This document shows positions 36,084-57,767 of a stretch of 64,000 bases of DNA, piece after piece; position 1 is the stretch's first letter; each line of letters starts with the position of its first letter. A model generated the notes under the pieces. The model ran no database searches. It worked only from the letters and a program-made list of their open reading frames with translations, and was not told where the DNA came from. The DNA is from Oscillospiraceae bacterium (lineage in GTDB: Bacteria > Bacillota > Clostridia > Oscillospirales > CAG-272). The DNA lies in assembly GCA_015063745.1 (NCBI GenBank), contig SVTO01000002.1:20882-84881 (forward strand), written 5' to 3'. The position numbers were made by a program, and so were the translations under genes.

Positions 36084-38897
36084 TTACTCAAATGCTACAC
36101 TCGTGAAGTATACATCCGTATCGTCCGCATAAACGATGCAGTCGATCACATTATCCTGTACGGAACCGCCTCTGGGCGCACTGATACTGAAGGATTCGGC
36201 CGCAAATTCACCCAGTTCCTTGGTCTGGGACAGTGCCCAGCCCTCTTCCGTTTCGCTGTATACATCAATTCTCGCTTTTTCTTCGCCGATATTACATACC
36301 AGCAGATACGGTGTGCCGTCCGTGGTTTCCGCCATTCTTACGGCAGCGGTACGGGAAAGGTCGATGGCCAGTTCTTCCGTGGAGATCACCTCACCGTCTT
36401 TATAGATCGCGTGATATCTCTTGAAAGTTTTATCCATCAATTCAGCATTACCCGGTCTGTCAGTATCGTCGAAATCGAACAGATAATACGTATAGAAAAT
36501 ATGCAGCTGTCCTTCGGAGTCGAGATATACATCCCCTGCGGATTCCACATTCACAACGGACCAGATACCCTCATCTCCCTGTTCGACATAAGGGAGACAA
36601 ATATCAACAAACGTATTGTTCTTCATTCGTGTAAGATCGGGGATGTGGAACAGAGCAATGGAATCGTCAATCTTGTTTGTGTAGCCGCTGTAGGACAGTC
36701 CCGCATCCTCTGTGTCTTCGGGGGTGATGTATCTCGTACCCACATAGTATACACCGCCGTTTCCGTCTTCTACAGTGTAGAAATTAGAATAGGCACCGGC
36801 AGCGGGCACAGTGGTTTTTGTGTCGAAACTGATACCGTTATAAGCGCGGCTGATGTTTCCGTATTTCCATGCTGTTGTATCCAAAACCATTGTCTGGCGC
36901 AGGAAACCCGGTATGTTTGCGAGAATCACACGGGTGTCTCCATTACCGTCTACGAAGAAATCCGATTGCTTTGTATAGTTCCATACTTCGGTAGGCTGTT
37001 GTACTGTCACCTCATCCGTGGAAGGATCAATTACATACAGGAAGAATCCGCTCGGAGGAGAAACGTAAATCAAGCCATCCGGCATCTGCTTGATGTTCAT
37101 GTACATACTCTGTGCAACCAGGTCTGTACTGCATGAGTAGGTATCGGTGTAAAGAATCTTTGCGGTATTGTCGTCTTCGACCTTTATGATCCGGAAGGTT
37201 TCGTAATCCTGCCAGCTGCTGTAGCTCATAGTATCCGGATGCTCATATTCCGTGGATAATACGGCATAAGTACCGTTTTCTGTGTGTACGACTTTGTTTT
37301 GGTGAGATTTGCCGTGTGCATTGGCACGGAACGGAGTATCCACCTGCAGATCAAATTCCGCCAGAATATCTTTCGGCTCTGAAATGCTATGATCCTTCAG
37401 AGAAATGGTGAATTCATAAGCAGAATGCCAGGGATGTTCCGGGGTTCTGTAGCTGTAAAAGAAACAGCTTAAAATATCATCCTGTATGGAACCGTCACGT
37501 ACGGCACCGATAGAAGTTGATGTATTATGTATACCGTTGAAGGAGCATCTGTTTACAAAGGTCCAGGATTTGCCCAGTGCATCGTCAGCTTTATAGAGTA
37601 AGATTTCTGAGGGAATATCCTGTCTGGCAACGATCATATACAGTGTCCCGTCACTGCTTTGGGTAATCAATAATTTTTGGGAACCTTCATATTGGTGATA
37701 CTGGGTATATTGGTATAAATCATATTCAGGCAGTTCGATTTTTTCATTGTAAATACATTCCATTCCGTCAAAAACAGCATGACGGTACTGGGGATTGAGA
37801 ACCTCTCTTGTACTTTGTGCGGAAATATCATACAGCCAGAACACATATGTAATATGGAGATATTCGTCCTTGTCCATGAATACACCGCCGGAGTTGGCAT
37901 TGTTCACGTCTGACCAGATCCCTTCAGCGGCTCTTGTACGATCCGGTTCATGTACGGGGATATATTCAATATTCTCCGTGGATGTAAGATCCGGAATGTG
38001 GAAAAGATACATTGTATCGTGGGCATAGGTTGTAAAGAAATCTCCTTCATAACCGACATGTTCTGCGAGCGCAGCTACCGGTATTCCATTCCGGCCGACC
38101 ACATAAGCTCCACCGTCGCCATCGGGGAAAGGGAAGAGATAATTGACCCGTCCTAAAATCGGAAAACGCTGGAAAAGACTGGTGGTACTCCACTCCCCGG
38201 TTTCCAAATCGAATACAAACCACTCCAGAACATAGTCCCCGGATTTATAATCTGCTGTATAAAACTGATAAACCCTCCGGTTGGCAAAATCAAACATGGT
38301 CTGAGAATAGCTGGGACGAAATCTATAGGACTCTTCTTCAGAATCGGAGGAAAATGTATAATCATCCGGCCGGAATATGGATAATTCATCGGTTTGGGCA
38401 TCAAAAATATAGGCGCACAAATCTTCACCGCCGGTTATAACCACAATATTTCCGTTGCTGTCCTGGCCGATATTGAGCTCAACCGTTCCGCCGCTGTCAG
38501 GATATTCACCATAATGCAGAATGGTGGTATTGTTGTCAAAATCGGTTTTGGTGACGTAAAACTGGGAATTGCCGCCGGAATTGACGTTAAAATATTTCAG
38601 AAAGGCAGCATATGTGCCCCTCTCTGTACGAACGACACGCTTCTGCTGGCCGTAGTGATAAGCAAGATAAGGATATGTTTCGGCATTCACTACGCTCAAT
38701 TCGTTGGCAGCAAGGATGCTTGATGCATCATCTACCGTAATCGCATGCTTTGCGGGAGTAAGCTCCGGTTCTTCCGGTTCGGTTTCCGCAGGGACGGTTT
38801 CATCGGTATTTGCTGTATCGGTTTCACCCACGGACGGATTTCCGCAGGCGGACAGAAGCAATAATCCTGTCAGCAGCAATGCAAACAATTTTTTCAT
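36084..38897 (-). CDS. Large secreted lipoprotein, paralog of 7..2841
   Basis: Lipobox LLLSAC; same duplicated motifs and C-terminus (SAPRGGSVQDN-IDCI-Y--D--VYFT-V-FE). Confidence 0.8.
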   Translation of the reverse strand: MKKLFALLLTGLLLLSACGNPSVGETDTANTDETVPAETEPEEPELTPAKHAITVDDASSILAANELSVVNAETYPYLAYHYGQQKRVVRTERGTYAAFLKYFNVNSGGNSQFYVTKTDFDNNTTILHYGEYPDSGGTVELNIGQDSNGNIVVITGGEDLCAYIFDAQTDELSIFRPDDYTFSSDSEEESYRFRPSYSQTMFDFANRRVYQFYTADYKSGDYVLEWFVFDLETGEWSTTSLFQRFPILGRVNYLFPFPDGDGGAYVVGRNGIPVAALAEHVGYEGDFFTTYAHDTMYLFHIPDLTSTENIEYIPVHEPDRTRAAEGIWSDVNNANSGGVFMDKDEYLHITYVFWLYDISAQSTREVLNPQYRHAVFDGMECIYNEKIELPEYDLYQYTQYHQYEGSQKLLITQSSDGTLYMIVARQDIPSEILLYKADDALGKSWTFVNRCSFNGIHNTSTSIGAVRDGSIQDDILSCFFYSYRTPEHPWHSAYEFTISLKDHSISEPKDILAEFDLQVDTPFRANAHGKSHQNKVVHTENGTYAVLSTEYEHPDTMSYSSWQDYETFRIIKVEDDNTAKILYTDTYSCSTDLVAQSMYMNIKQMPDGLIYVSPPSGFFLYVIDPSTDEVTVQQPTEVWNYTKQSDFFVDGNGDTRVILANIPGFLRQTMVLDTTAWKYGNISRAYNGISFDTKTTVPAAGAYSNFYTVEDGNGGVYYVGTRYITPEDTEDAGLSYSGYTNKIDDSIALFHIPDLTRMKNNTFVDICLPYVEQGDEGIWSVVNVESAGDVYLDSEGQLHIFYTYYLFDFDDTDRPGNAELMDKTFKRYHAIYKDGEVISTEELAIDLSRTAAVRMAETTDGTPYLLVCNIGEEKARIDVYSETEEGWALSQTKELGEFAAESFSISAPRGGSVQDNVIDCIVYADDTDVYFTSVAFE

Positions 38898-42820: not shown

Positions 42821-43798
42821 ATGAACACACCTGCTTATTCCGGAATTATTTCGAATTATGTTTGCACGGCGGCTTGTCGGCACTGTATGTTTGGGTCGGC
42901 GCCGGACTGTCCGAAGGAGTTTATTTCGGCGGAGATGGCGGAGAAGACGGCGGTGATACTGGAGAAGGCCGGGACGCGGTCGGTGCATATTGGCGGCGGG
43001 GAGCCGTTTATGCATTTTCCTGCACTGTGTGATCTGATCGAAGCTTTGGGACGGCATAGGATCGGGATTGATTATATCGAGACCAATGCGTTCTGGGCGA
43101 AGGATGAAGAGATCATTATGGAGCGGCTTCTGAAGCTGCGGTATCTGGGTGTGGACACGGTGATGGTTTCCGTTGACCCGTTCCATATTGAGTTTGTGCC
43201 GCTGGAAAGGCCCGTTCTGCTCTGCCGGATGCTTGACAAGGCCGGATTTGACTATTTCATCTGGAAGGATCGGTATCTGCGTCCTCTGATGAAGCTGGAC
43301 ACGGGAAAGGTACACACAAAGGAAGAACTGATGGAAGTGCTCGGCAAGCATTACATCACCGACACGGCGGCGGAATACGGGGTTGGTATGAACGGACGTG
43401 CTCTGGCCATTGCGAAGGAGCTGTTCTCTGCCCGACCCGCGGAAAAGTGGATCACGAAGAATCCCTGTTCTTCCCTGCTGGACACCTGCCACTGCCATTT
43501 TGACTTATACGGCAACGCGGTTCCCTCGGGCTGTCCCGGTATTTCTGCGGAAACGGAAGATTATCTGACTGAAAACATTCCGGCGGAAAAGTATCCGGTT
43601 CTGTACCGTTTGTACAATGGCGGCACGGCGGCTTTGTATGAATACGCCAAAGAAAAAGGCTTTGTACCGGATGAAGCGGGGTATCCGTCCAAGTGTGCCT
43701 TCTGTTACGCCATGCGGTCCTATCTGGTATCCTCCGGGAACAAATCGGCGGATCTTTCTCCCGTTTGTTTCTATGAGCAGATTGATAAAATTGTATAA
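42821..43798 (+). CDS. Radical SAM protein with SPASM/twitch-like C-terminal cysteines
   Basis: CTAACRHC (CX3CX2C), GGGEPFMH, CHCHFDLYGNAVPSGCPG, CAFC. Confidence 0.8.
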   Translation: MNTPAYSGIISNYVCTAACRHCMFGSAPDCPKEFISAEMAEKTAVILEKAGTRSVHIGGGEPFMHFPALCDLIEALGRHRIGIDYIETNAFWAKDEEIIMERLLKLRYLGVDTVMVSVDPFHIEFVPLERPVLLCRMLDKAGFDYFIWKDRYLRPLMKLDTGKVHTKEELMEVLGKHYITDTAAEYGVGMNGRALAIAKELFSARPAEKWITKNPCSSLLDTCHCHFDLYGNAVPSGCPGISAETEDYLTENIPAEKYPVLYRLYNGGTAALYEYAKEKGFVPDEAGYPSKCAFCYAMRSYLVSSGNKSADLSPVCFYEQIDKIV

Positions 43799-43892: not shown

Positions 43893-46076
43893 TCAGTTTG
43901 CGTAGCCTGTGCGGGCGATGACATTGTCCTGCAGGTCGGCGGAGAGTTTCACGAAATGGTCGCTGTAGCCGCCTACACGTACGATCAGGTTCCGGTGATT
44001 TTCCGGATGTACCTTGGCATCCAGCAGATCCTCGGCCGATACGACCGTTACGGAAAGCTGCTGACCGCCGTTTTCGAAAAAGGTCTTCCATAACGCCAGA
44101 AAATTGTTGATACCTTCTTCCGTATTGAAAAGGGTCCTGTCAAATTTGATATTCAGTACAAAACCGCTTCCCGCCAGATGATGGGGCAGAGCAAGTACGG
44201 AATTCAATAGTGCCGTGGGGCCGTTTTCATCCCGTCCGGGTGTGGCGCCGATACTGTCTGCGATCAGCGGATCCCCCCTGTGTCTGCCGTTTGCGCCGGC
44301 GCCGGTGTGTATGCCGTAACCCGGTGCACGGACGAATGTGGAGCATCCGCCGGTGTATCTGCCGCCGCGGTAGGTGGGAATGGTCAGCAGATACCGGAAG
44401 AAATGATCCGTAATGTCCTTGGCCAGTGCGTCGGAGGAGGGGTCGTTGTTGCCGAAGCGGGCAGGTTTTTCCGCCAGCATCTGCCGCATGACTTCATCCT
44501 CTGCAAAGTCCGTTTCCAGCGCGTGGATCAGCTGTGCCATCGTGAAGTTTTTCTGTTCGTATACATGATAGCGGATGGCGGCGAGAGAATCCACCGTATC
44601 TGCCAGGCCTTCGATCAGGATCTGGCCGTGGTTGTACAGAGGGCCGCCGCATTTGAAATCCCGGCCTTTCTCGATGCATCCCTGATGCATAATGGAACGC
44701 CAGGGGTTCTGGGCGGTTTCGCCATGCCCCTGCTGTGTCACATTCGCCATACGGCAGATCACATTCGTTACATACTCCACTTCCTTCTTATAGGCAGCAA
44801 GCAACTCTTCGAATGTAGCAAAGCTGCAGGGATCGCCGCAGTCCATTGTCAGTTTTTCGCCGGAGATCTGGCATTTGCCCCGGTGCAGCATGAATTCCAG
44901 ACATTTATACAGGTTGACTTCCCCGTCCTCCAGACCCATGTGGCTCTTGCCCTGAATGTCGATCTGGTTGCAGCCGTTCATAGCGTAGTCGTGGGCATCC
45001 TTCGGAGGAATACCCAGTTCGTCAATGAACATTCTGCATACGGCCTTGTCGTTGTACAGTGCCGGCAGTCCGCAGCCCATGCCGATGGCTTCCGCCGCAC
45101 TTCTCATCAGTGCCGGGTCGGTGTTTTCGTGCCAGCGCATGGTCAGGTTCGGGGTGGAATAACGGTATTTCTTTACCAGCTCCAGCATGGCAAAGGAAAT
45201 CTCGTTGGTCATGTCGTTCCCCTTTTCGTCGGAACCGGAAATACACATATTCCATGCCCTGAACTTCCGGAAGCCCTGCCACATACCGTCCAGGATAGCG
45301 AACGCTTCGTCGTAGGGGGTCTTCTTCCAGTACGGCAGGAAGATCTGGTCCAGTCTGCCGGGGGAATCGAATCCGTCGTAGGAGAAGTACAGCCAGAAGA
45401 ACTGTGCCGCGGAAAGAAAATCATAGGGGGTATTCCGGGGGCAGGTCTCCATGGCGCGGGCGATGTCAAGAAGATGCTTTTTCTCCCCTTCGTCCTCCGT
45501 TTCTGCGGCCATGGTTTCCGCCATTGCCTTGATCCGGTCGCCGATAACTTCAAAGCCGTCCAGCATTTTTTCAAGGCCGTTATAGAAATCTTCGGCGTGG
45601 GGATTTACCTTCCGGTAGCGGTTGATTTTCGCACGGAGACCGGATGTACCGAGGGCCAGAAGTCCGCCGTAGTCCGGAATCGTATGTCCGCCGCCGGCAC
45701 CGCCTCCCCAGCCTGCTCCGGCATCGCTGACCTTGAGATCCATCGGATCCATCAGATCGCGTACCCGGAATTCCGTGGACAGGGGTTCTGTGTACTGTTT
45801 CAGCATATCCAGAAATTCCGAATATTCCGGATATTTTTCTTTTTTCTGTACGATCAGCTCTTCGCTGTAATACGTACCGATATCATAATGAATTCCGACG
45901 GCACAGAACACTCTGCCGCATCGGAACAGGCCGACTTCCTTATCGTATGCGATCGGCAGAACCTTACATTCTTCATACAGTCCGGCGCCTCTGGCACAGT
46001 ACGGTCCTTCTTCCATATGGGAAAGATAGCCGTAACCAAAGGGTTCGCTGAGAATCGGGTCATAATTTATGTGCAT
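43893..46076 (-). CDS. Glycyl radical enzyme (PFL-like superfamily), paralog 1, GCNQ active-site variant
   Basis: MNGCNQIDIQG; GCIEKGRDFKCGGPLYNHGQ; TPGRDENGPTALLNSV; RVGGYSDHF. Confidence 0.85.
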   Translation of the reverse strand: MHINYDPILSEPFGYGYLSHMEEGPYCARGAGLYEECKVLPIAYDKEVGLFRCGRVFCAVGIHYDIGTYYSEELIVQKKEKYPEYSEFLDMLKQYTEPLSTEFRVRDLMDPMDLKVSDAGAGWGGGAGGGHTIPDYGGLLALGTSGLRAKINRYRKVNPHAEDFYNGLEKMLDGFEVIGDRIKAMAETMAAETEDEGEKKHLLDIARAMETCPRNTPYDFLSAAQFFWLYFSYDGFDSPGRLDQIFLPYWKKTPYDEAFAILDGMWQGFRKFRAWNMCISGSDEKGNDMTNEISFAMLELVKKYRYSTPNLTMRWHENTDPALMRSAAEAIGMGCGLPALYNDKAVCRMFIDELGIPPKDAHDYAMNGCNQIDIQGKSHMGLEDGEVNLYKCLEFMLHRGKCQISGEKLTMDCGDPCSFATFEELLAAYKKEVEYVTNVICRMANVTQQGHGETAQNPWRSIMHQGCIEKGRDFKCGGPLYNHGQILIEGLADTVDSLAAIRYHVYEQKNFTMAQLIHALETDFAEDEVMRQMLAEKPARFGNNDPSSDALAKDITDHFFRYLLTIPTYRGGRYTGGCSTFVRAPGYGIHTGAGANGRHRGDPLIADSIGATPGRDENGPTALLNSVLALPHHLAGSGFVLNIKFDRTLFNTEEGINNFLALWKTFFENGGQQLSVTVVSAEDLLDAKVHPENHRNLIVRVGGYSDHFVKLSADLQDNVIARTGYAN

Positions 46077-46118
46077 AGGATAACCTCCAAGAGGATGCTC
46101 TGCTTATAGCCTGCGGGA

Positions 46119-48305
46119 TTACCGTCCGTATCCCGTACGGGCAATGACATTATCCTGCAGATCGGCACTGATATTCACGAAATAGTCGCTGTATCCGCCG
46201 ACACGTACAATCAGATTCCGGTGGTTTTCGGGGTGTACTTTTGCGTCCAGCAGTTCTTCCTGGGATACAACTGTGACAGACAGCTGCTGACCGCCTTGTT
46301 CAAAGTACGTTTTCCACAGGGCCATAAAATTATCCATACCTTCCTTTGTGTTGAATACCTCTTTATCAAACTTGATGTTCAGTATGAATCCGCTTCCTGC
46401 CATATGGTGGGGCAGTTCCAATACAGAGTGCAGCAGAGCCGTAGGACCTTCTTCATCTCTTCCGGGTGTTGCTCCGATACTGTCTGCCGTCAGCGGATCG
46501 GCTTTATGACGTCCGTTGGGAGCGGCACCGGTACATTCACCGGCTTCTGCGGCTTCTTTAAAAGGAGAACAGCCACCGGTATACCAACCGCCACGGAAAG
46601 TGGGAATCGTTAACAGATAACCAAAATAATGTTCCACAACCTCTTTGGCCAGGGCATCCGTATCCGCATCCCCGTTACCAAAGCGGGCCGGTTTTTCGGA
46701 TAACATCTGCCGCATTACCTCATTATCGGCAAAATCTGTCTCCAAAGCATGGATCAGCTGCTCCATGGTAAAGTTTTTCTTTTCAAATACATGATAACGA
46801 ATGGCTGCCAGAGAATCCACCGCATCCGCAAGAGCAAGTGTTAACATTTGACCATGGTTGTAAATCGGACCACCGTTTTTAAAATCCCGGCCTTTTTCAA
46901 TACAACCGTCAAAGACAAGGGAACACCAAAGGTTCGGTGCATACTGTGCATGGATACGCTGACAAGCATTGGCATGCCGACAGGCCGTTTCGGTAACATA
47001 TTCAACTTCTTTTTTAAATCCCTCCAACACTTCTTCGAATGTTGTACACTGTGTGGGATCTCCGAAATCTCTGCCAAGCATTTCACCGGTAATCGTACAC
47101 ATACCCCGGTGAAGATATAACTCCATACACTTACACAAATTTACGTTACCGTCTTCCAGACCCATATGGCTTTTGCCCGGAATATCGATCTGGTTACAGC
47201 CGTTCATGGCATAGTTGTAGGCATCCTTTGCCGGGATTCCCAATTTCTCCATGAACATCTTACAAACCACACGGTCATTATACAGTGCCGGTATACCGCA
47301 TCCGGTTGCCAGAGCCTCTGTTGCCTTCTGCATCAGCGCAGGATCTGTATTTTCATGGCATCGCATAGTCAAATTCGGTGTCTGGAAACGATGTTTTCCT
47401 ACCAGTTCCAAAAAAGCAAAGGAAAGTTCATTGGTCATATCGTTCCCATGTTCATCGGAACCGGAGATACACACGTTCCATGTACGATGCTTATGGAACC
47501 CGATCCAGATACCGTCTAAAATAGCAAACGCTTCATCGTACGGTGTCTTTTTCCAATAAGGCAGGAATATCTGGTCCAGTCGGCCGGGAGAATCGTAGGT
47601 ATCATAGGAGAAATACATCCAGAAGAACTGTGCTGCCGACAGAAAATCATAGGGTTCTCCTTTTAAGAAATGGGACATCGCACGGGAAAGAGCGAGAAAA
47701 TGTTCCTTCTCTTTTTCGCTTTCGGTTTCTGCTGCCATCTTTGCTGCCAGTTCAGCGGTTCTTCTGCCAACTGCCTCCATGCCTTCCAGGACACGTTCCA
47801 GCCCATCGTAAAAATCGGAAACATAGGGGTGGATCTTTCTGTATTTATTGATTTTTTCCCGCAGACCATCCCCCGTCATTTTCAGCATCTTTCCATAATC
47901 AGGCTGCGTATGACCGCCCCATGTGCCGCCCATAAAACCATGCTGTATGGATAACTGGATCTCATCCGGTTTTCTGTATTCCGAAAATTCGATCATTTTT
48001 TCTGTATTCAGAGGAACCAAAATATCTTCGATGGCACGGAAAAAGTCGGCATATTCCGGGAACTTTGCTTTTTTGCGTTCGATGATTCCCTCTTCTGTAA
48101 ATATACCCCAACAGGGTCTGTAGCCGGCACAATACAAAGGACGAACACATTCAAACAAACCTACATCTTTATCGTATTGAATGGGCATAACCAAGCATTC
48201 CTGGTATAAGCCTTCCGCCATAGCAATGTATCTGCCTTGTTCTACTTTGGACAAATAACCGTAAGCAAACGGGTCATCTATCTTTTGATGGTAAGAAAAT
48301 TCCAT
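46119..48305 (-). CDS. Glycyl radical enzyme, paralog 2, GCNQ variant
   Basis: MNGCNQIDIPG; GCIEKGRDFKNGGPIYNHGQ; RVGGYSDYF. Confidence 0.85.
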   Translation of the reverse strand: MEFSYHQKIDDPFAYGYLSKVEQGRYIAMAEGLYQECLVMPIQYDKDVGLFECVRPLYCAGYRPCWGIFTEEGIIERKKAKFPEYADFFRAIEDILVPLNTEKMIEFSEYRKPDEIQLSIQHGFMGGTWGGHTQPDYGKMLKMTGDGLREKINKYRKIHPYVSDFYDGLERVLEGMEAVGRRTAELAAKMAAETESEKEKEHFLALSRAMSHFLKGEPYDFLSAAQFFWMYFSYDTYDSPGRLDQIFLPYWKKTPYDEAFAILDGIWIGFHKHRTWNVCISGSDEHGNDMTNELSFAFLELVGKHRFQTPNLTMRCHENTDPALMQKATEALATGCGIPALYNDRVVCKMFMEKLGIPAKDAYNYAMNGCNQIDIPGKSHMGLEDGNVNLCKCMELYLHRGMCTITGEMLGRDFGDPTQCTTFEEVLEGFKKEVEYVTETACRHANACQRIHAQYAPNLWCSLVFDGCIEKGRDFKNGGPIYNHGQMLTLALADAVDSLAAIRYHVFEKKNFTMEQLIHALETDFADNEVMRQMLSEKPARFGNGDADTDALAKEVVEHYFGYLLTIPTFRGGWYTGGCSPFKEAAEAGECTGAAPNGRHKADPLTADSIGATPGRDEEGPTALLHSVLELPHHMAGSGFILNIKFDKEVFNTKEGMDNFMALWKTYFEQGGQQLSVTVVSQEELLDAKVHPENHRNLIVRVGGYSDYFVNISADLQDNVIARTGYGR

Positions 48306-48330
48306 ATTTCCCTCCGATATTGTTTTATTA

Positions 48331-48372
48331 TTTCTCGTATCCCGTACGGGCGATCACATTGTCCTGCAGGTA
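48331..48372 (-). pseudogene. Relic 3' tail of a GRE gene
   Basis: Minus strand reads ctgcaggacaatgtgatcgcccgtacgggatacgagaaataa = LQDNVIARTGYEK*, downstream of GRE paralog 3 stop. Confidence 0.7.
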
Positions 48373-48378
48373 TGGTGG

Positions 48379-50580
48379 TTATGTCCGATTTGATGTCCGG
48401 TTCAATACATTTTGCTGCAGTTCAGGAGCAAGATTGACAAAGTAATCACAATATCCGCCAATACGCACGATCAGATTCCGGTGATTTTCCGGGTGTACCA
48501 GTGCATCACGCAGTTCTTCCTCGGAGACGACCGTCACCGCCATTTGCTGACCACCGTTTTCAAAATAGGTCTTCCACAGAGCAATAAAGTTGTTTAGTCC
48601 TTCTTCCGTATTGAAAAGAGTCTTGTCGAATTTGATATTCAGAATAAATCCGCTTCCCGCCAGATGATGGGGAAGTTTCAAAACGGAATTCAACAATGCG
48701 GTAGGACCGGTTTCGTCCCGGCCGGGGGTAGCACCGATACTGTCTGCGATCAGCGGATCCCCTTTATGCCGTCCGTTGGCTCCTGCGCCCGTACCGGAAC
48801 CGCATTTCGCTGCTTCGCTGAAAGGAGAACAGCCGCCGGAGAACCTGCCGCCTCTGTAAGTGGGAATGGTCAGTAAAAACCGGAAGAAATGTTCCATAAT
48901 GTCCTTACCGATAGCATCTGTATAGGCGTCTCCATTGCCGAAGCGGGTTGGTTTCTCGGACAGCATCTGCCGCATGACCTCTTCCCCCTCGAAATCCTTT
49001 TCCAGAGCGGCGATAAGCTGTTCCATGGTAAAGTTTTTCTGTTCAAATACGTGATACCGGATGGCGGCAAGGGAATCCACGGTATCCGCCAAACCTTGTG
49101 TCAAAATCTGACCGTGGTTGTAGATAGGGCCACCGTTCTTGAAGTCCCTGCCTTTTTCTATACAGCCTTGATGCATGAGGGAACGCCACAGGTTCGGTGC
49201 ATATTCCGCATGGATCTTCTGGGAAATATTGCTGAATCGGCAGCAGATTTCGGTGACATATTCCATCTCCTTCTTAAACAGAAGAAGAAATTCTTCAAAT
49301 GTTTTACATTCCGCAGGATCACCGCAGTCAAGGCCCAATTTCCGGTTTGTCATCATACATTTGCCCCGGTGCAAACACAACTCAAGACATTTGTACAGAT
49401 TGACTTGTCCATCTTCCAGACCCATGTGGCTTTTGCCCTGAATATCGATCTGGTTACAGCCGTTCATGGCGTAATTATGGGCATCCTTCGGGGGAATTCC
49501 CAGATTCTCCTGCAAAGATTTGCATACGACTCTATCATTATACAAGGCAGGTACACCGCATCCCACAGCCAATGTTTCTGCCGCAGCTCGGATGAGCGCA
49601 GGATCGGTATTTTCGTGACAGCGCATGGTCAGGTTCGGCGTTTCAAAGCGGTGCTTCTTCACAAGATCCAGCATAGCGAAGGAAATTTCGTTTGTCGTAT
49701 CATTGCCGAATTCATCTGAGCCGGAAATACACACATTCCAGGACCGATGTTTATGGAAGCCGATCCAGATTCCCTCAAGAATCGCAAACGCCTCATTATA
49801 GGGGGTCTTGTTCCAGTACGGCAGGAAAATCTGATCCAGACGTCCGGGAGAGTCATAGCCGTCGTAGGAGAAGAACATCCAGAAAAACTGTGCAGCAGCG
49901 AGAAAGTTCTCCGGTGTATTCTGCGGACACGTTTGCATGGCACGGGCAATCGCAAGGAGATGGTTTTTTTCTTCCTCAGACGAGGCACTTTCCGCCATAT
50001 GTAAAGCTTTTTCCCGAATACGCTGTCCGATCAATTCAAAACCGTCCAGTACTCTTTCCAATCCGTCGTAAAAATCCGCAGAAGCAGGATTGACATTTCT
50101 GTACTTGAGGATCTTTGCACGCAGACCGTTCGTACCGCCATCCAGCAGTCCGCCGTAATCCGGCACGGTATGTCCCGCCCAGAAACCGCCCCAGAACCCA
50201 AACATATCGGACAGAATATTTTCTTCTTCCGTCTTATAAGGAGAATTACAGATCATACTGTTGGTATCCAACGGTGCCAGTACTTCTTCTGCTGCTTCAA
50301 AAAACTCCTTATAATCGGGGAATTTTTCTTTTTTCTCCCTGAACAAGGCTGCATTAAAGAAAATACCCGCAAAAGAGACGAAGCCCGCAAATGTTCCGCC
50401 CCAGGGATAGCCGCACCGTCCGCATTGAAACAGTTTTACGTCTTCATCATAGTAAATCGGCAGAATGGCACATTCTTCATACAAACCTTCCCCCATAGCG
50501 GAATACTTCCCTTTTTCCAAAGCAGACAGGTACCCGTATGCAAAGGGTTCGTATATATCTTCGTGGTAAGAAAACTTCAT
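48379..50580 (-). CDS. Glycyl radical enzyme, paralog 3, GCNQ variant
   Basis: MNGCNQIDIQG; GCIEKGRDFKNGGPIYNHGQ; RIGGYCDYF; start at MKFSYHED. Confidence 0.85.
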   Translation of the reverse strand: MKFSYHEDIYEPFAYGYLSALEKGKYSAMGEGLYEECAILPIYYDEDVKLFQCGRCGYPWGGTFAGFVSFAGIFFNAALFREKKEKFPDYKEFFEAAEEVLAPLDTNSMICNSPYKTEEENILSDMFGFWGGFWAGHTVPDYGGLLDGGTNGLRAKILKYRNVNPASADFYDGLERVLDGFELIGQRIREKALHMAESASSEEEKNHLLAIARAMQTCPQNTPENFLAAAQFFWMFFSYDGYDSPGRLDQIFLPYWNKTPYNEAFAILEGIWIGFHKHRSWNVCISGSDEFGNDTTNEISFAMLDLVKKHRFETPNLTMRCHENTDPALIRAAAETLAVGCGVPALYNDRVVCKSLQENLGIPPKDAHNYAMNGCNQIDIQGKSHMGLEDGQVNLYKCLELCLHRGKCMMTNRKLGLDCGDPAECKTFEEFLLLFKKEMEYVTEICCRFSNISQKIHAEYAPNLWRSLMHQGCIEKGRDFKNGGPIYNHGQILTQGLADTVDSLAAIRYHVFEQKNFTMEQLIAALEKDFEGEEVMRQMLSEKPTRFGNGDAYTDAIGKDIMEHFFRFLLTIPTYRGGRFSGGCSPFSEAAKCGSGTGAGANGRHKGDPLIADSIGATPGRDETGPTALLNSVLKLPHHLAGSGFILNIKFDKTLFNTEEGLNNFIALWKTYFENGGQQMAVTVVSEEELRDALVHPENHRNLIVRIGGYCDYFVNLAPELQQNVLNRTSNRT

Positions 50581-50611
50581 AATCCACCTCCGAGTAGCCA
50601 AAGAAAATTCG

Positions 50612-52810
50612 TTAACTTCTGTATCCTGTACGGGCAATAACATTGTCCTGCAAATCGGCACTGATATTGACAAAATAGTCACTGTAGCCACCAACACGTA
50701 CAATCAGATCCCGGTGGTTTTCGGGGTGTACTTTGGCATCCAGCAGTTCTTCCTGGGACACAACCGTGACGGACAGCTGCTGACCGCCGTTTTCAAAATA
50801 GGTCTTCCAGATGGCAAGGAAGTTTTCCATACCTTCTTCCGTATTGAAAACATCTTTATCGAATTTGATATTCAGAATAAATCCGCTTCCCGCCAGTTCG
50901 TGGGGCAGCTGCAGGGCGGAGTTCAGAAGTGCGGTGGGGCCTTCTTCGTCTCTGCCGGGAGTTGCGCCGATACTGTCTGCGAACATAGGCTCGAATTTAT
51001 GCCGTCCGTTGGGACAGGCACCGGTGTTTCTGCCGTATCCCGCCGCACGGATGAAAGGAGAACAGCCGCCCGTGTACCAGCCGCCGCGGTAAGTGGGGAT
51101 GGTCAGCAGGTGTCTGAAATAATGTTCCACAACTTCTCTTGCCAGCGCGTCCGTATCCGGGTCACCGTTGCCGAAGCGTACGGGCTTTTCGGACAGCATA
51201 CGGCGCATGACTTCATTGTCTTCAAAGTCCTTATCCATACCGTCAAGCAACTCGGCCATGGTAAAGTTCTTCTGCTCGAACACATGGTAACGCATTGCCG
51301 CCAGGGAGTCCACGGCATCCGCAAGACCTTCCGCCAGGATCTGACCGTGGTTGTATATCGGTCCTCCGGCCTTGAAGTCCCTTCCCTTTTCGATACAGCC
51401 CTGAATCATCAGGGAACGCCACAGATTCGGGGAATTGTCCGCATGTACCTTCTGGCTCTTGTTGGACATACGGCAGGCCATATCGGTGATGTATTCCACT
51501 TCCTTCTTGAATGCCGCCAGTACTTCATCAAAGGTGGTGAAGGTCAGCGGGTCGCCGCAATCGAAACCGATTTTTTCGCCGGTATAGGTACATACACCCC
51601 GGTTCAGCATCAGTTCCACGCATTTGCACAGGTTCACTTCCCCGTCTTCCAGACCCATGTGGCTTCTGCCCTGAATGTCGATCTGGTTACAGCCGTTCAT
51701 GGCGTAATTGTGGGCATCCTTCGGAGGGATTCCCAGTTCATCCATGAACATTCTGCAGACTGCGCGGTCGTTGTACAGGGTGGGCAGGCCGCATCCCGCA
51801 CCGATGGCTTCCGCAGCACTTCTCATCAGCGCCGGATCGGTGTTTTCGTGGCAGCGCATGGTCAGGTTGGGCGTCTGGAAACGGTGCTTCTTCACCAGTT
51901 CCAGGAATGCGAAAGAAATTTCATTGGTAGTATCGTTTCCGTTTTCGTCGGAACCGGAAATGCACACGTTCCAGGTACGGTGCTGGTGGAAACCGATCCA
52001 CATACCGTCCAGAATAGCAAAGGCTTCATCATAGGGGGTCTTCTTCCAGTAGGGCAGGAAGATCTGGTCCAGACGTCCGGGAGAATCGTATCCGTCGTAG
52101 GAGAAGAAAATCCAGAAGAACTGTGACGCGGAGAGGAAATCGTAGGGAGTGTTCTGAGGGCAGGTTTCCATGGCGCGGGCGATGGCGAGAAAATGATTCT
52201 TTTCCCCTTCGTCTGCAGCTTCTGCGGCTCTCTTTTCCGCTTCCGCCTTCACTCTCTCACCGATCAGGTCAAAGCCGTCCAGTACTCTCTCAAGCGCATC
52301 GTAAAATTCGGCGGAGTAGGGATTGGTGCTTCTGTATCGGTTGATCTTGGCGCGCAGGCCGGATGTACCCAGCTCCAGCAGGCCGCCGAAATCCGGTACC
52401 GTATGACCCGCCCAGGTTCCGCCCCAGCAGGTTCCGTTTTCGCTGGCTACATGCTCCTCATGGGTAAACGCATTGCACAGCAGATGATCCATATCCTTGG
52501 GACCGAGCACCTTTTCCACAGCATCAAAGAAATCAGCGTATTCCGGGAATGCTTTTCTCTTTTTTGCCATTGCTTCGGCATTACAGTACAGACCGGGCGC
52601 AGAAACAAATCCGGCCACGCTGTCGTCGTTCCAGCCCCGGCATATTCTGCCGCACTGGAACAGCTTTACTTCTTCGTCATATTCAATATCCATAGCCGCA
52701 CATTCGGCATACATACCTTCGGCCAGAGCAATATACTCCCCTTTTTCCACATTGGAAAGATACGCATAGGCAAAGGGTTCGTTAAGTACGGCGTCGTAAT
52801 GCAGTTTCAT
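50612..52810 (-). CDS. Glycyl radical enzyme, paralog 4, GCNQ variant
   Basis: MNGCNQIDIQG; GCIEKGRDFKAGGPIYNHGQ; RVGGYSDYF. Confidence 0.85.
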   Translation of the reverse strand: MKLHYDAVLNEPFAYAYLSNVEKGEYIALAEGMYAECAAMDIEYDEEVKLFQCGRICRGWNDDSVAGFVSAPGLYCNAEAMAKKRKAFPEYADFFDAVEKVLGPKDMDHLLCNAFTHEEHVASENGTCWGGTWAGHTVPDFGGLLELGTSGLRAKINRYRSTNPYSAEFYDALERVLDGFDLIGERVKAEAEKRAAEAADEGEKNHFLAIARAMETCPQNTPYDFLSASQFFWIFFSYDGYDSPGRLDQIFLPYWKKTPYDEAFAILDGMWIGFHQHRTWNVCISGSDENGNDTTNEISFAFLELVKKHRFQTPNLTMRCHENTDPALMRSAAEAIGAGCGLPTLYNDRAVCRMFMDELGIPPKDAHNYAMNGCNQIDIQGRSHMGLEDGEVNLCKCVELMLNRGVCTYTGEKIGFDCGDPLTFTTFDEVLAAFKKEVEYITDMACRMSNKSQKVHADNSPNLWRSLMIQGCIEKGRDFKAGGPIYNHGQILAEGLADAVDSLAAMRYHVFEQKNFTMAELLDGMDKDFEDNEVMRRMLSEKPVRFGNGDPDTDALAREVVEHYFRHLLTIPTYRGGWYTGGCSPFIRAAGYGRNTGACPNGRHKFEPMFADSIGATPGRDEEGPTALLNSALQLPHELAGSGFILNIKFDKDVFNTEEGMENFLAIWKTYFENGGQQLSVTVVSQEELLDAKVHPENHRDLIVRVGGYSDYFVNISADLQDNVIARTGYRS

Positions 52811-52850: not shown

Positions 52851-54191
52851 TCAGTTGTACTCCGGCAGCCAGCCTGCATGGGCTTCGATCAGGTCGTCAC
52901 ACATACGCACGATGTCGTCAATGGACAACTCGGAGGCGCAGTGGGGATCCATCATGGCTGCCTGATAGATTTTTTCTTTCTTACGGGTCACAGCCGCCTC
53001 GATGGTCAGCAGCTGTACATTGATGTTACTCATATTCATAGCCGCCAGCTGGGTGGGAAGCTTACCCTGTGCGCAGGGCACGATGCCGTTCACATCCACC
53101 ATACAGTTGACTTCCACACATGCTTCTCTGGGCAGGTTTGCAATCACGCCTTCGGTATTGACCACATTGGCGCAGATCTTCGTGGGCACGTCTGTAACCA
53201 TGGCTTCCATGATATAGGACGCAAACTCATGGGTACGTTCGTGGGATACTTCATTGCTGAGATACTTTTCTCTGTCGTTTTCCCATGCGGCGATCTGGTT
53301 CACACAGCGGCGGGGATATTCGTCCAGCGGGATGTGATAACGATCGATCAACTCGGGATACTTGGACTTGATGAAGAAATTGTTGTATTCCGCATTGTGT
53401 TCGCTGGATTCGGTGCAGTAGTAACCCAGACGGCGGATGTATTCCAGACGAACCAGGTCATGGAAAGGCGTTTCTTCCGTTCCGTTATCGGCAGCGGCCA
53501 GCTTGGCAAGGGCTTTTTCCCGTACGATGGGGTACAGATCGGTACCGTCACCGTCCGCCAGTTCCAGCAGCCATGCCATATGGTTGATGCCGGCGATGCG
53601 TTCTCTGATCGGTTCGGTATAGGGAATCTCCAGCTCGGACAGCAGGCCTCTGGAGCAAACCTGCGTGGAATGACACAGACCGATGGTCTTTACCGGTGTG
53701 AATCTCTGCATGAAGCCGGTCAGCATGGCCATGGGGTTGGTGTAGTTTAAGAACCATGCATCGGGGCATACTTCTGCCATATCCTTTGCGAAATCGTCCA
53801 GAACGGGAATGGTACGCAGGGCACGGAAGATACCGCCGATGCCGAGGGTATCCGCAATGGTCTGCTGCAGGCCGTACTTCTTGGGAATCTCAAAATCCGT
53901 GATGGTGCAGGGGTCATAACCGCCTACCTGAATGGCGTTTACCACAAAACGGGCGCCGCGCAGGGCATCCTTGCGGTTTTCCACACCCAGATACTTGCTG
54001 ATCTTTGCTCTGCCGGCGTTGATATTGCGGTTCAGAGAATCGATCATGATATAGGATTCTTCCAGACGCTTGGCGTCGATATCGTAAAGGGCAATTTCAA
54101 AGTCCTGCAGGGCGGGGGTGAGCATGGTATCCCCCAGGACGTTCTTGGCAAATACGGTGCTGCCTGCACCCATAAATGTAATCTTATCCAT
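52851..54191 (-). CDS. GH4 family (alpha-galactosidase/6-phospho-glycosidase type) NAD-dependent glycosidase
   Basis: KITFMGAGSTVFAKNVLGD; NAIQVGGYDP; IGLCHS; GINHMAWLLEL; NPMAMLT. Confidence 0.88.
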   Translation of the reverse strand: MDKITFMGAGSTVFAKNVLGDTMLTPALQDFEIALYDIDAKRLEESYIMIDSLNRNINAGRAKISKYLGVENRKDALRGARFVVNAIQVGGYDPCTITDFEIPKKYGLQQTIADTLGIGGIFRALRTIPVLDDFAKDMAEVCPDAWFLNYTNPMAMLTGFMQRFTPVKTIGLCHSTQVCSRGLLSELEIPYTEPIRERIAGINHMAWLLELADGDGTDLYPIVREKALAKLAAADNGTEETPFHDLVRLEYIRRLGYYCTESSEHNAEYNNFFIKSKYPELIDRYHIPLDEYPRRCVNQIAAWENDREKYLSNEVSHERTHEFASYIMEAMVTDVPTKICANVVNTEGVIANLPREACVEVNCMVDVNGIVPCAQGKLPTQLAAMNMSNINVQLLTIEAAVTRKKEKIYQAAMMDPHCASELSIDDIVRMCDDLIEAHAGWLPEYN

Positions 54192-54221: not shown

Positions 54222-55421
54222 TCAGTTTTCCTTTTCGCGTGCCATGACCCACTTGCCTCTGGTGAAGTCGGGGAAGCATACGGGTGCGGAACCCATGATG
54301 ATGGACTGTTCCGCCAGTACGGTAACTGCCATCCAGCTGGCTGCATCGTATACGTCGATGGGCATGGGCTTGCCGGCTTTGACACATTCAAAGAAGTCAC
54401 GGAATTCCAGCCAGTCTATACCGCCGTGCCCGCCCGTGATGCCGCTGGCAAAGAAGTCCTTCCACATCGGATGGTCGTACTTTTCCATGTATTCCTCGAA
54501 ATTGTTGAAATTTCTGTTGTATCCGTTGTCTTCGCAGCAGACACATCTGTACTGTTCATCCACAAGACCTCTGGTACCGCGTACGGTAAAGCTGCGGCCG
54601 CCCAGATTTACGATGGAGGTGTCCAGTGTCAGGGTGATGGTTTCACCGCCTGCACACTTGATTACGGTAGTAATGATATCGCCCTGGGCAAAATGGGTTT
54701 CCTTCAGACCGGGGTCCACTTTGTCTTCACCGACTCTGGCGATATAGTCATGCATACCGGCTTCCTTGGATGCGGTTGCGGTCAGGGACAGCATACGGTT
54801 GCCGTGGTTGATCTTCAACAGCTTGGCAATGGGGCCGAGATCGTGGGTGGGATAGTTTTCGGTGTTCCGGAGAATGTAGTTGCGCTGACGGTAGTGTCTT
54901 TCCTTACGGCCCGTGCAAATCTGGCTGCTGAGGTCGTGGTGGTAGGCGCCCGCACAGTGTACGACTTCACCGAACAGTCCCTGTCTTGCCATGTTCAGCG
55001 CCATCAGCTCCAGACGGCCGTAGCAGCAGTTTTCCAGGAACATAAAGGGGGTGCCGGTTTCTTCATATGTGCGTACCAGACGCCAGCAGTCTTCCAGATC
55101 GTAGGCACCGCCCACTTCCATACCGGTGATCTTGCCGGCCTTCATGGCATAAACCGCAACATCCACGTGCATTTCCCAGTCCGTGGTGATCAGAACCACA
55201 TCCACTTCGGGATCGTCAATGGCTTTCTTATAATCGGGTTCACACTTCGGCGCGGGTCTGTTCTTATCCAGAATATAGCCTACGCTGGCTTCCATTCTGT
55301 CTTCATATATATCGCAGATCACCTTGATTTCCACGTCATCCATATGACAGAGCAGTTCGTCATACAGATACTGCTGTCCTCTCTGGCCCAGTCCGATCAG
55401 TGCCACTCTAACTTTTTCCAT
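54222..55421 (-). CDS. Gfo/Idh/MocA family oxidoreductase, GH109-like (paralog 7)
   Basis: VALIGLGQRG; YPTHDLGPIAKLLKINHGNRM; GGHGGIDWLEF. Confidence 0.85.
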   Translation of the reverse strand: MEKVRVALIGLGQRGQQYLYDELLCHMDDVEIKVICDIYEDRMEASVGYILDKNRPAPKCEPDYKKAIDDPEVDVVLITTDWEMHVDVAVYAMKAGKITGMEVGGAYDLEDCWRLVRTYEETGTPFMFLENCCYGRLELMALNMARQGLFGEVVHCAGAYHHDLSSQICTGRKERHYRQRNYILRNTENYPTHDLGPIAKLLKINHGNRMLSLTATASKEAGMHDYIARVGEDKVDPGLKETHFAQGDIITTVIKCAGGETITLTLDTSIVNLGGRSFTVRGTRGLVDEQYRCVCCEDNGYNRNFNNFEEYMEKYDHPMWKDFFASGITGGHGGIDWLEFRDFFECVKAGKPMPIDVYDAASWMAVTVLAEQSIIMGSAPVCFPDFTRGKWVMAREKEN

Positions 55422-55704: not shown

Positions 55705-56070
55705 ATGTCCGGACAAATTGCCATCACGTCGGCGGAGCTTGCGGTTATGCAGGTTTTATGGGAAGCCGGCGGACCGCTGAAAATTCAGGAAGTATGGGAG
55801 GGACTGCCGGAAGCCGGGTGGAAGTACAACACCGTCGGCACACTGCTGCTGCGTCTGGAAGAAAAAGGCGCTGTCCGCTGTGAAAAAATCGGCAAAAACC
55901 GTACCTACACCTCCCTGCTGGACAAAGAGGAATATACCAAAGATCAGACCCGGGGCATCATCGACCGGTTCTACCACGGTTCCGCAAAGGAGCTGGCTGC
56001 CGCGCTGATGCGTACGGAAAGTCTGACGGCGGAGGATATTGACGAACTGCGGAAGGAATTCGGCTTATGA
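55705..56070 (+). CDS. BlaI/MecI/CopY family transcriptional repressor
   Basis: ITSAELAVMQVLWEAGGPLKIQEVWEGL...YNTVGTLLLRLEEKGAV. Confidence 0.88.
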   Translation: MSGQIAITSAELAVMQVLWEAGGPLKIQEVWEGLPEAGWKYNTVGTLLLRLEEKGAVRCEKIGKNRTYTSLLDKEEYTKDQTRGIIDRFYHGSAKELAAALMRTESLTAEDIDELRKEFGL

Positions 56071-57767
56071 CCGGCGTTTTTCTGAATCTGACGGCCTGTG
56101 CGGCTCTCGGATCCCTGTGCGGTGCGGTGTTTTATCTGCTGCGCCCCGCAACAAGGCGGATTCTGGGACCGGAGAACCAGTACCGGCTTTGGATTCTGCT
56201 GTTGATTCTGTGGGTTCTGCCCCTGCGGTTTACGCTGCCCGAAACGGTGACGGAAACCTTTGCGGAGAATATACCCGGGGATATTTTTGCGGTATCCGAT
56301 ACATCGGGAATCATCCGGTCGGAGGATCTGTATTTCGATCTGCCGACTGACACGGACCGGGTTGAGCCGGCACGCACGGAAAACACCCATCCGGTGTTGT
56401 CTGACGGAGTGGTACTGTCCGTTCTGCGGTGGATCTGGGCGGCGGGGATACCCATTGCCTTTCTGATGCAGATCGTCCCCTACATACGCTTCCGCAAAGT
56501 GCTGAAACATACGTCCCTGCCCCTCGGTTATGCCGTATCCGACGGGATGAAAATACCTGTCTGCCGCAGTTTTGCGGTGGATTCACCCATGGTGGCAGGT
56601 ATTTTCCGACCCGTGCTGTATCTGCCGGAGCGGGACTGCAGCAAAGAAGAGTATACCTGCATCCTGCGGCATGAAATGACCCATGCGAAAAGAGGGGATA
56701 TCCCTCTGAAATGGTTTGCCGCGGCGGTGCGCTGTCTCCACTGGTGGAATCCTCTTGTCCATCTCACCGTATGCCGTTTTGCCGAGGAATGTGAGATTTC
56801 CTGCGACTTCCGGGCGGCGGCGGATATGGGTGAGAACCAGCGTAAGGTTTACATGAAGCTGCTTCTGGATCTTGCGGAAGCGAAATGCCGGAAACGGGAA
56901 TTTCTTTCCACGGGATTTTCAGACAGCAGAGCATTTCTGAAACGGAGACTTATGATGATTCAAAACGGAAAGAAACAAAAAATAATGACCACCGTCCTGT
57001 CATCCCTTCTGCTGGCAGGCCTGTCTGCCGGTCTGATCTATGCGGGCGGTGTGTTCAGGGATTCCCTTCTGCCCGAAGAAACGGACGCACAGGAGAATCT
57101 GCCCGTAGTGGAAACCCTGACGGAAGCAGACACCGCGGAAACCTGTGCCGTATCCGGTACATCTGCTGCGGAAACTCTGGAATCTCTCAAGGAAGAATTG
57201 ACAAAACTACAGCAGGAAATCGGTGAAATACAGGAAGAAACGGAAGCTGCGGTGGGAACGGATGAGGAATACGAAGCAATCGCTGATGACGTTGTTTATC
57301 AGCATGAAGAATTCGCAGAAATCGTTGATGACATTGTTTATCAGGACAGTGAACCCGTAATGCATGAGGAAATGTCCGTGGAAATTCCGGCTATTCTGAA
57401 ACCGGATCGGGATGTCAACCTCCCCTTTGGTATGTCAAACAATTACGGCAAGGAATACTTCCATAACGGTGTGGATTTCAAAGGTGAGGAAGGCGAGGAC
57501 ATCCCTTCCGCATCCGCCGGTGAGATTGTGTACATGGGTTACGAATACGACTACGGCAACCTGATCATTGTAAAAAGCGGTGCATTCGAAATCTTCTACG
57601 CCCACCTGTCCGGCTTCAACCCATCCCTGCAGGAAGGCGATATTGTGGAAATCGGCACCATTCTCGGTGAAATCGGCCATACCGGCGCCACCACCGGCCC
57701 GCACCTGCATTTTGAAATCCGCCTGAACAGCCAGCCGATCGATCCCGCATCCCTCTGGGCAAAATAA
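56067..57767 (+). CDS. BlaR1-like M56 metallopeptidase fused to C-terminal M23 (LytM) domain
   Basis: RHEMTHAKRGD (M56); GVDFKGEEGEDIPSASAGEIVYMG...GATTGPHLHFEI (M23); 4-bp overlap with blaI-like gene. Confidence 0.85.
   Translation: MTGVFLNLTACAALGSLCGAVFYLLRPATRRILGPENQYRLWILLLILWVLPLRFTLPETVTETFAENIPGDIFAVSDTSGIIRSEDLYFDLPTDTDRVEPARTENTHPVLSDGVVLSVLRWIWAAGIPIAFLMQIVPYIRFRKVLKHTSLPLGYAVSDGMKIPVCRSFAVDSPMVAGIFRPVLYLPERDCSKEEYTCILRHEMTHAKRGDIPLKWFAAAVRCLHWWNPLVHLTVCRFAEECEISCDFRAAADMGENQRKVYMKLLLDLAEAKCRKREFLSTGFSDSRAFLKRRLMMIQNGKKQKIMTTVLSSLLLAGLSAGLIYAGGVFRDSLLPEETDAQENLPVVETLTEADTAETCAVSGTSAAETLESLKEELTKLQQEIGEIQEETEAAVGTDEEYEAIADDVVYQHEEFAEIVDDIVYQDSEPVMHEEMSVEIPAILKPDRDVNLPFGMSNNYGKEYFHNGVDFKGEEGEDIPSASAGEIVYMGYEYDYGNLIIVKSGAFEIFYAHLSGFNPSLQEGDIVEIGTILGEIGHTGATTGPHLHFEIRLNSQPIDPASLWAK

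Follow-up and report, generated by a model that had tools for sequence, protein, structure and literature searches.

Glycyl radical enzymes (GREs) that catalyze eliminations share a Cys-X-Glu (CXE) sequence as a conserved feature (PMC7077986, PMC8473560). The effect of exchanging this Glu for Gln has been reported for two of them: HypD E436Q has no detectable activity (PMC7077986), and IslA E470Q has none either, with its glycyl radical still present (PMC8473560). For HypD, the role proposed for Glu436 is to hold the leaving group in position and not to serve as the base in ketyl radical formation (PMC7077986). Here, we describe four tandem genes, GRE1 to GRE4, in which the same position is occupied by Gln, within a loop that reads Gly-Cys-Asn-Gln (GCNQ). 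They lie in a stretch of 64,000 nucleotides (hereafter, the window) from an Oscillospiraceae bacterium (GenBank assembly GCA_015063745.1, contig SVTO01000002.1, positions 20,882 to 84,881 of the forward strand). The swap is the mark of a whole monophyletic branch of GREs and not a local oddity.

The closest described systems are the B12-independent glycerol and 1,2-propanediol dehydratases (1r8w, 5i2a, 9rco), which give the best profile (489 and 484 bits) and fold (TMq 0.84) matches. These dehydratases and the GCNQ clade have in common the catalytic Cys, the glycyl loop, a His at the position of glycerol dehydratase His164 (H136; residue numbering throughout is that of GRE4), and an acid at the position of Asp447 (E388). 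They differ in overall sequence (~24% identity), in the replacement of Glu435 by Gln, in a His281/Ser282 loop that is shorter in the clade, and at Cys+4, where Gln has become Asp. HypD is the top single-sequence match in the Protein Data Bank (E 1.8e-83), yet GRE1 to GRE4 score 330–348 bits against a HypD cut-off of 1100, and HypD Glu436 is Gln in the clade. Asp278 of HypD may, tentatively, correspond to D242.

Three further groups deserve comparison. YbiW and PflD, dehydratases of 1,5-anhydrohexitol 6-phosphates, are also GREs, and as their substrate is a sugar alcohol phosphate, GRE chemistry on sugars exists. They carry GCIE and GCVE loops and occupy separate tree branches, on which grounds we did not take up a reading of our proteins as 1,5-anhydrohexitol 6-phosphate dehydratases; moreover, Escherichia coli pflD is adjoined by phosphotransferase genes, whereas the GRE operon of the window has none. 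PflB likewise lacks Glu at Cys+2, but it has a Cys-Cys pair, is very distant in sequence (only the C-terminal part is matched), and catalyzes another reaction. Finally, a sister group with a GCQE loop (contig C16 of the host genome and loci L045, L047, and L054) shares with the GCNQ clade an acid at Cys+4, an ED pair, and an R(V/I)GG(Y/F) loop, but keeps the Glu at Cys+2.

Four intact genes with GCNQ at the Cys loop

All four genes lie on the minus strand: GRE1 (43893..46076, 727 aa), GRE2 (46119..48305, 728 aa), GRE3 (48379..50580, 733 aa), and GRE4 (50612..52810, 732 aa). Their open reading frames (ORFs) are intact at 727–733 aa, with pairwise identities of 65–69%, and each encodes the pyruvate formate-lyase (PFL)-like barrel (PF02901) and the C-terminal glycyl radical domain (PF01228) far over cut-off (365.6 and 87.5 bits in GRE1). 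With these domains, the thiyl Cys, and the radical Gly in an RVxGY loop, the proteins are members of the GRE superfamily.

A scan for the GCNQ codon pattern returned exactly four matches in the window, all on the minus strand: 44964..44975 in GRE1, 47190..47201 in GRE2, 49450..49461 in GRE3, and 51683..51694 in GRE4, where they encode G373-C374-N375-Q376. Shuffling gives an expectation of 0.25 matches, and four were reached in 0 of 100 shuffles. The Cys loop reads DA(H/Y)(D/N)YAMNGCNQIDI(Q/P)G(K/R)SHMG across the four proteins, a second motif reads GCIEKGRDFK(C/N/A)GGP(L/I)YN, and the glycyl loop reads R(V/I)GGY(S/C)D. The codons of this last loop are found on the minus strand at 43965..43979 (RVGGY, GRE1), 46191..46205 (RVGGY, GRE2), 48451..48465 (RIGGY, GRE3), and 50684..50698 (RVGGY, GRE4). 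The radical position is Gly in all, and not the Ala, Ser, or Thr of aminoacyl radical enzymes.

A preliminary description of this DNA, made from the sequence alone, had placed GCNQ in all four GREs at just these sites and had reported the same intact motifs, and on both points we agree. Its details require some correction: the minus strand carries all four genes, the residue before the radical Gly is Gly and not Ala or Ser, and the start codon of GRE3 is the ATG at 50580, behind a CGGAGG Shine-Dalgarno sequence, and not the upstream TTG.

In alignments, C374 and Q376 fall on C433 and E435 of glycerol dehydratase and on C434 and E436 of HypD (counted along the printed alignments), that is, the Cys is kept and the Glu has become Gln. 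The alignments through the motif are free of gaps for glycerol dehydratase, propanediol dehydratase, and HypD (phmmer and profile against solved structures), and in each GRE sampled, it is the catalytic Cys with which the Cys of GCNQ aligns. These comparisons make a strong case that GCNQ occupies the site of the thiyl-radical Cys and the Glu base, as had been proposed. It had also been pointed out that PFL lacks this Glu but has two adjacent Cys residues, and the E. coli loops bear this out: PflB reads ACCVS, where YbiW reads GCIE and PflD reads GCVE.

The site is therefore neither that of PFL nor a canonical dehydratase/lyase site, with no CC pair and no CXE. GC stands in place of CC, and the PFL model TIGR01255 gives <100 bits against a cut-off of 994.2; the Cys-X-Glu of the eliminases is Cys-Asn-Gln in the four paralogs and the whole clade. 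The NCBIfam equivalogs for HypD, CutC, sulfopropanediol dehydratase, HPAD, and IAD all score far under their curated cut-offs (e.g., 348 vs 1100). A GCNQ clade with an already characterized activity had been considered in the preliminary description; no known equivalog and no solved structure falls inside the clade. Literature searches on GCNQ, on a missing or Gln-substituted Glu, and on GREs found with glycosidases gave nothing relevant, although subscription papers may mention them. The clade is previously uncharacterized: all of our sequence and fold tests identify its members as GREs, and by definition they are not CXE eliminases.

A monophyletic clade under purifying selection

Homologues were gathered in two ways: by a motif-assisted scan and, without recourse to the motif, by searching the host genome and sampled genomes of its genus, order, class, and phylum with whole-protein profiles. 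When scored with a single profile, all matches above ~570 bits carry GCNQ and no full-length match below ~555 bits does; short length alone brings a few GCNQ fragments, from contig ends, below this gap. In a quick tree (64 proteins), a branch with SH-aLRT support of 99 separates the 36 GCNQ proteins from all others, and the GCQE proteins form the neighboring group. Several branches outside the GCNQ clade are long, and we make no claim about deeper relations.

With the E-value limits applied, the profile matched 14 of the 295 genomes sampled from the order (GCQE or other loops in a few), 8 of the 391 from the class (GCQE in one), and, the host excepted, none of the 399 from across the phylum. 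GCNQ homologues span many families of one bacterial class, and their named sources include the gut of roe deer, goat, water buffalo, and horse. The host genome encodes six GCNQ proteins, two of them outside the window. Another tandem array, in a different family, holds three GCNQ GREs and an activating-enzyme gene (L107, 1524-9002).

Glu stands at Cys+2 in 26 of 27 sampled non-clade GREs (PFL not counted), compared with Gln throughout the clade, where no reversion to Glu was seen among the sampled proteins. C374 and the radical Gly (G708) are invariant, and the whole loop MNGCNQ(I/V/F)DI is clade-specific. The dN/dS ratio is 0.10–0.17 between the window paralogs (unsaturated dS only) and 0.09–0.15 between related genomes: GCNQ genes are maintained under purifying selection. 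We rejected a pseudogene reading of GRE1 to GRE4 on these ratios.

Several other GREs came to light in these searches. One distant GRE (L041:1351-3648), which does not belong to the GCNQ clade, has a GCSQ loop and represents a second lineage in which Gln takes the place of the Glu. Genomes of the genus (G000, G1052, G1053, G1054) give ~5–11 GRE matches each, with Cys loops that include TCVE, ACWE, GCWE, GCYE, GCEE, and GCTE and with unusual glycyl loops (RIWGW, RLCGW, RVSGW). The matched stretch of one host GCNQ GRE (G000:C33:853-2700) contains one TGA, yet a 720-aa open frame is also given; the TGA is probably the stop codon itself, drawn in at the edge of the match. At L103:10719-13813, a likely pyruvate formate-lyase stands with an activating enzyme and a separate 80-aa ORF resembling a glycyl radical segment, possibly a split or spare-part PFL.

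Conserved acids and the missing Glu

The Gln at Cys+2 raises the question of which residues might take over the task of the Glu. H136 is invariant in the clade (compared with 27 other GREs), as is E388 (Cys+14, codon 51647..51649 on the minus strand), which has D389 beside it and falls on Asp447 of glycerol dehydratase. Both Asp447 and His164 of that enzyme are substrate-contacting residues. D378 (Cys+4, codon 51677..51679, minus strand) is also invariant; it is Glu in the GCQE sister group and has no equivalent elsewhere in the sample. D242 is 97% conserved. As the GCQE group has both the Cys+4 Glu and the ED pair, these extra acids seem older than the loss of Glu at Cys+2.

An engineered CutC E491Q (5fav) is among the solved-structure matches. 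Given the dead HypD and IslA mutants, GCNQ enzymes probably do not function as standard CXE eliminases, and from the same mutants we infer a mechanism distinct from known GREs. The preliminary description had spoken of a functional, mechanistically distinct subfamily. That the subfamily is functional and distinct is supported by its monophyly, by purifying selection, and by the activating enzyme that its members often have to themselves; a distinct mechanism is what HypD E436Q and IslA E470Q would suggest.

Activating enzymes

A GRE-activating enzyme adjoins a GCNQ GRE at nine sampled loci (L017, L018, L019, L020, L022, L105, L106, L107, L109), and in two of these nine enzymes the DGPGIR signature is slightly altered; the L107 gene reads HDSDGVR in its place. 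The host genome, which is 82% complete, has an orphan activating enzyme at the end of contig C24 (G000:C24:38898-39743). It groups with the L017 enzyme (95/92), which itself adjoins a GCNQ GRE, and a pairing of the C24 enzyme with the GREs of the window is plausible from this relationship. Beside the orphan gene are two large putative lipoproteins (L089:2834-8610) whose beginnings seem to resemble that of the lipoprotein at 36084-38897 of the window.

The radical S-adenosylmethionine (SAM) gene at 42821-43798 of the window, which converges on GRE1, encodes a protein weakly like the YydG peptide epimerase. We considered it as an activating enzyme and rejected it, as it is YydG-like and has no DGPGIR signature.

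Operon and gene neighbors

The GREs are the last four genes of a six-gene operon with gaps of 30–73 bp and a GGAGG-type site at most genes. Its first gene (54222..55421, minus strand) encodes a Gfo/Idh/MocA oxidoreductase with a GH109-type C-terminal domain, and the second (52851..54191, minus strand) encodes an NAD-dependent GH4 glycosidase of the alpha-galactosidase (MelA) subfamily with a CHST motif (PRK15076, 599.7 bits vs a cut-off of 486). The order Gfo/Idh, GH4, GRE is also found in L012. Promoter and terminator scans of the DNA gave site counts no higher than in shuffles. Divergent from the operon, at 55705-57767, are a BlaI/MecI-type repressor, followed by a BlaR1-type M56 protein that carries a fused M23 peptidase domain; a BlaI/MecI-BlaR1 pair also stands beside the operon in L012.

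Sugar-related neighbors occur at other clade loci as well; the genes near clade members there encode GH95 enzymes, a class II aldolase, an FGGY kinase, a carbohydrate esterase, a xylose-isomerase-like protein, Gfo/Idh, and aminotransferases of the DegT and class III types. A sugar-related role is our best guess from these neighbors, and we give it moderate weight.

What the GCNQ enzymes may do

The reading to which we give tentative preference, stopping just short of calling it probable, is that of a sugar-related radical dehydratase/lyase subfamily in which other conserved acids have taken over the handling of protons. The radical would be installed by a standard GRE-activating enzyme whose gene lies in another part of the genome, the best candidate being that on C24. 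The C374 thiyl radical would then abstract hydrogen from a polyol derived from a sugar, with loss of water or of a different leaving group, as in dehydratase-type GREs. The proton transfer done elsewhere by the Glu at Cys+2 might pass, most likely, to E388, D378, or D242, leaving Q376 only to form hydrogen bonds, and the four tandem copies may act on related sugars freed from glycans, alongside GH4 and Gfo/Idh. In support of this reading, we point to the gap-free alignment, the fold match (TM 0.84), monophyly, purifying selection, adjoining activating enzymes, and the conserved acids, as well as to the six-gene operon, the sugar-related neighbors elsewhere, and the precedent of YbiW and PflD, GREs that act on sugar alcohol phosphates.

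Some points weigh against it. The window contains no GRE-activating enzyme. Several clade loci have no sugar genes around them and lie amid genes of housekeeping type (gyrase/topoisomerase-like, DNA polymerase III, release factor), and as neighbors are mixed beyond the close relatives of the window, the sugar link is suggestive only. The alignment of D242 with HypD D278 adjoins a gap and is tentative. Finally, in the AlphaFold model (18 sequences; mean pLDDT 87.5, pTM 0.88), pLDDT is <50 at residues 375-377 and 379-386, and the geometry of Q376 and D378 is not readable from it. Comparison of a model with known GREs had been suggested as a check; the overall fold agrees with the propanediol and glycerol dehydratase structures (TM 0.84 at ~24% identity), the Cys-loop geometry does not bear reading, and the placement of GCNQ therefore rests on sequence.

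The strongest alternative, a serious one and possible in our view though not probable, is that no 1,2-elimination takes place: a radical reaction that works without a base (cleavage or coupling of C-C bonds, isomerization or epimerization, or decarboxylation) would have no need of Glu at Cys+2, just as PflB, with its ACCVS, has none there. The E-to-Q changes that kill HypD and IslA, the radical of IslA E470Q being installed all the same, speak against an ordinary elimination with Gln, and a loop that is clade-specific in its entirety is a further point for this alternative. However, the nearest structure and sequence matches are eliminases (propanediol dehydratase, glycerol dehydratase, HypD, and CutC), His136 and the acid at the Asp447 position are kept, and the GCQE sister still has its Glu. 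A bolder proposal, which we hold to be somewhat unlikely, is that the clade represents an undescribed GRE reaction type that dispenses with the Cys+2 base (for example, a redox-neutral rearrangement, epimerization, or C-C/C-O cleavage of a glycan-derived sugar), the tandem copies being a substrate-diversified set in herbivore gut bacteria.

It is improbable that these are standard eliminases in which Gln replaces Glu through hydrogen bonding, with a substrate acidic enough, or already ionized, to make the base unneeded. The leaving-group role proposed for HypD Glu436 (PMC7077986) makes a non-base function conceivable, but HypD E436Q and IslA E470Q had no detectable activity, and Gln never reverts in the sampled clade. 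Still harder to credit are noncatalytic proteins, whether pseudoenzymes or decaying duplicates. A residue that is catalytic in relatives has indeed been lost, and the host copy on C33 has a TGA in its matched stretch, but the ORFs are intact, dN/dS is about 0.1–0.2, the Cys and glycyl loop are invariant, activating enzymes adjoin the gene at related loci, and tandem amplification is seen in another family too (L107). That GCNQ lies away from the thiyl loop, through an alignment artefact, we can practically dismiss: AlphaFold lacks confidence at residues 375-386, but several independent comparisons align without gaps and put the Cys on the catalytic Cys of all sampled GREs.

Conclusions

In the GCNQ clade, nature has fixed the mutation that inactivates relatives and then amplified the gene, which provides a ready-made test of the role of this residue. 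Gut bacteria have many GREs to which no function has yet been assigned, and among their enzymes the clade is an unexplored group. If the substrate is a sugar, as our preferred reading of a sugar-related dehydratase/lyase would have it, the small set of carbohydrate-acting GREs would be widened.

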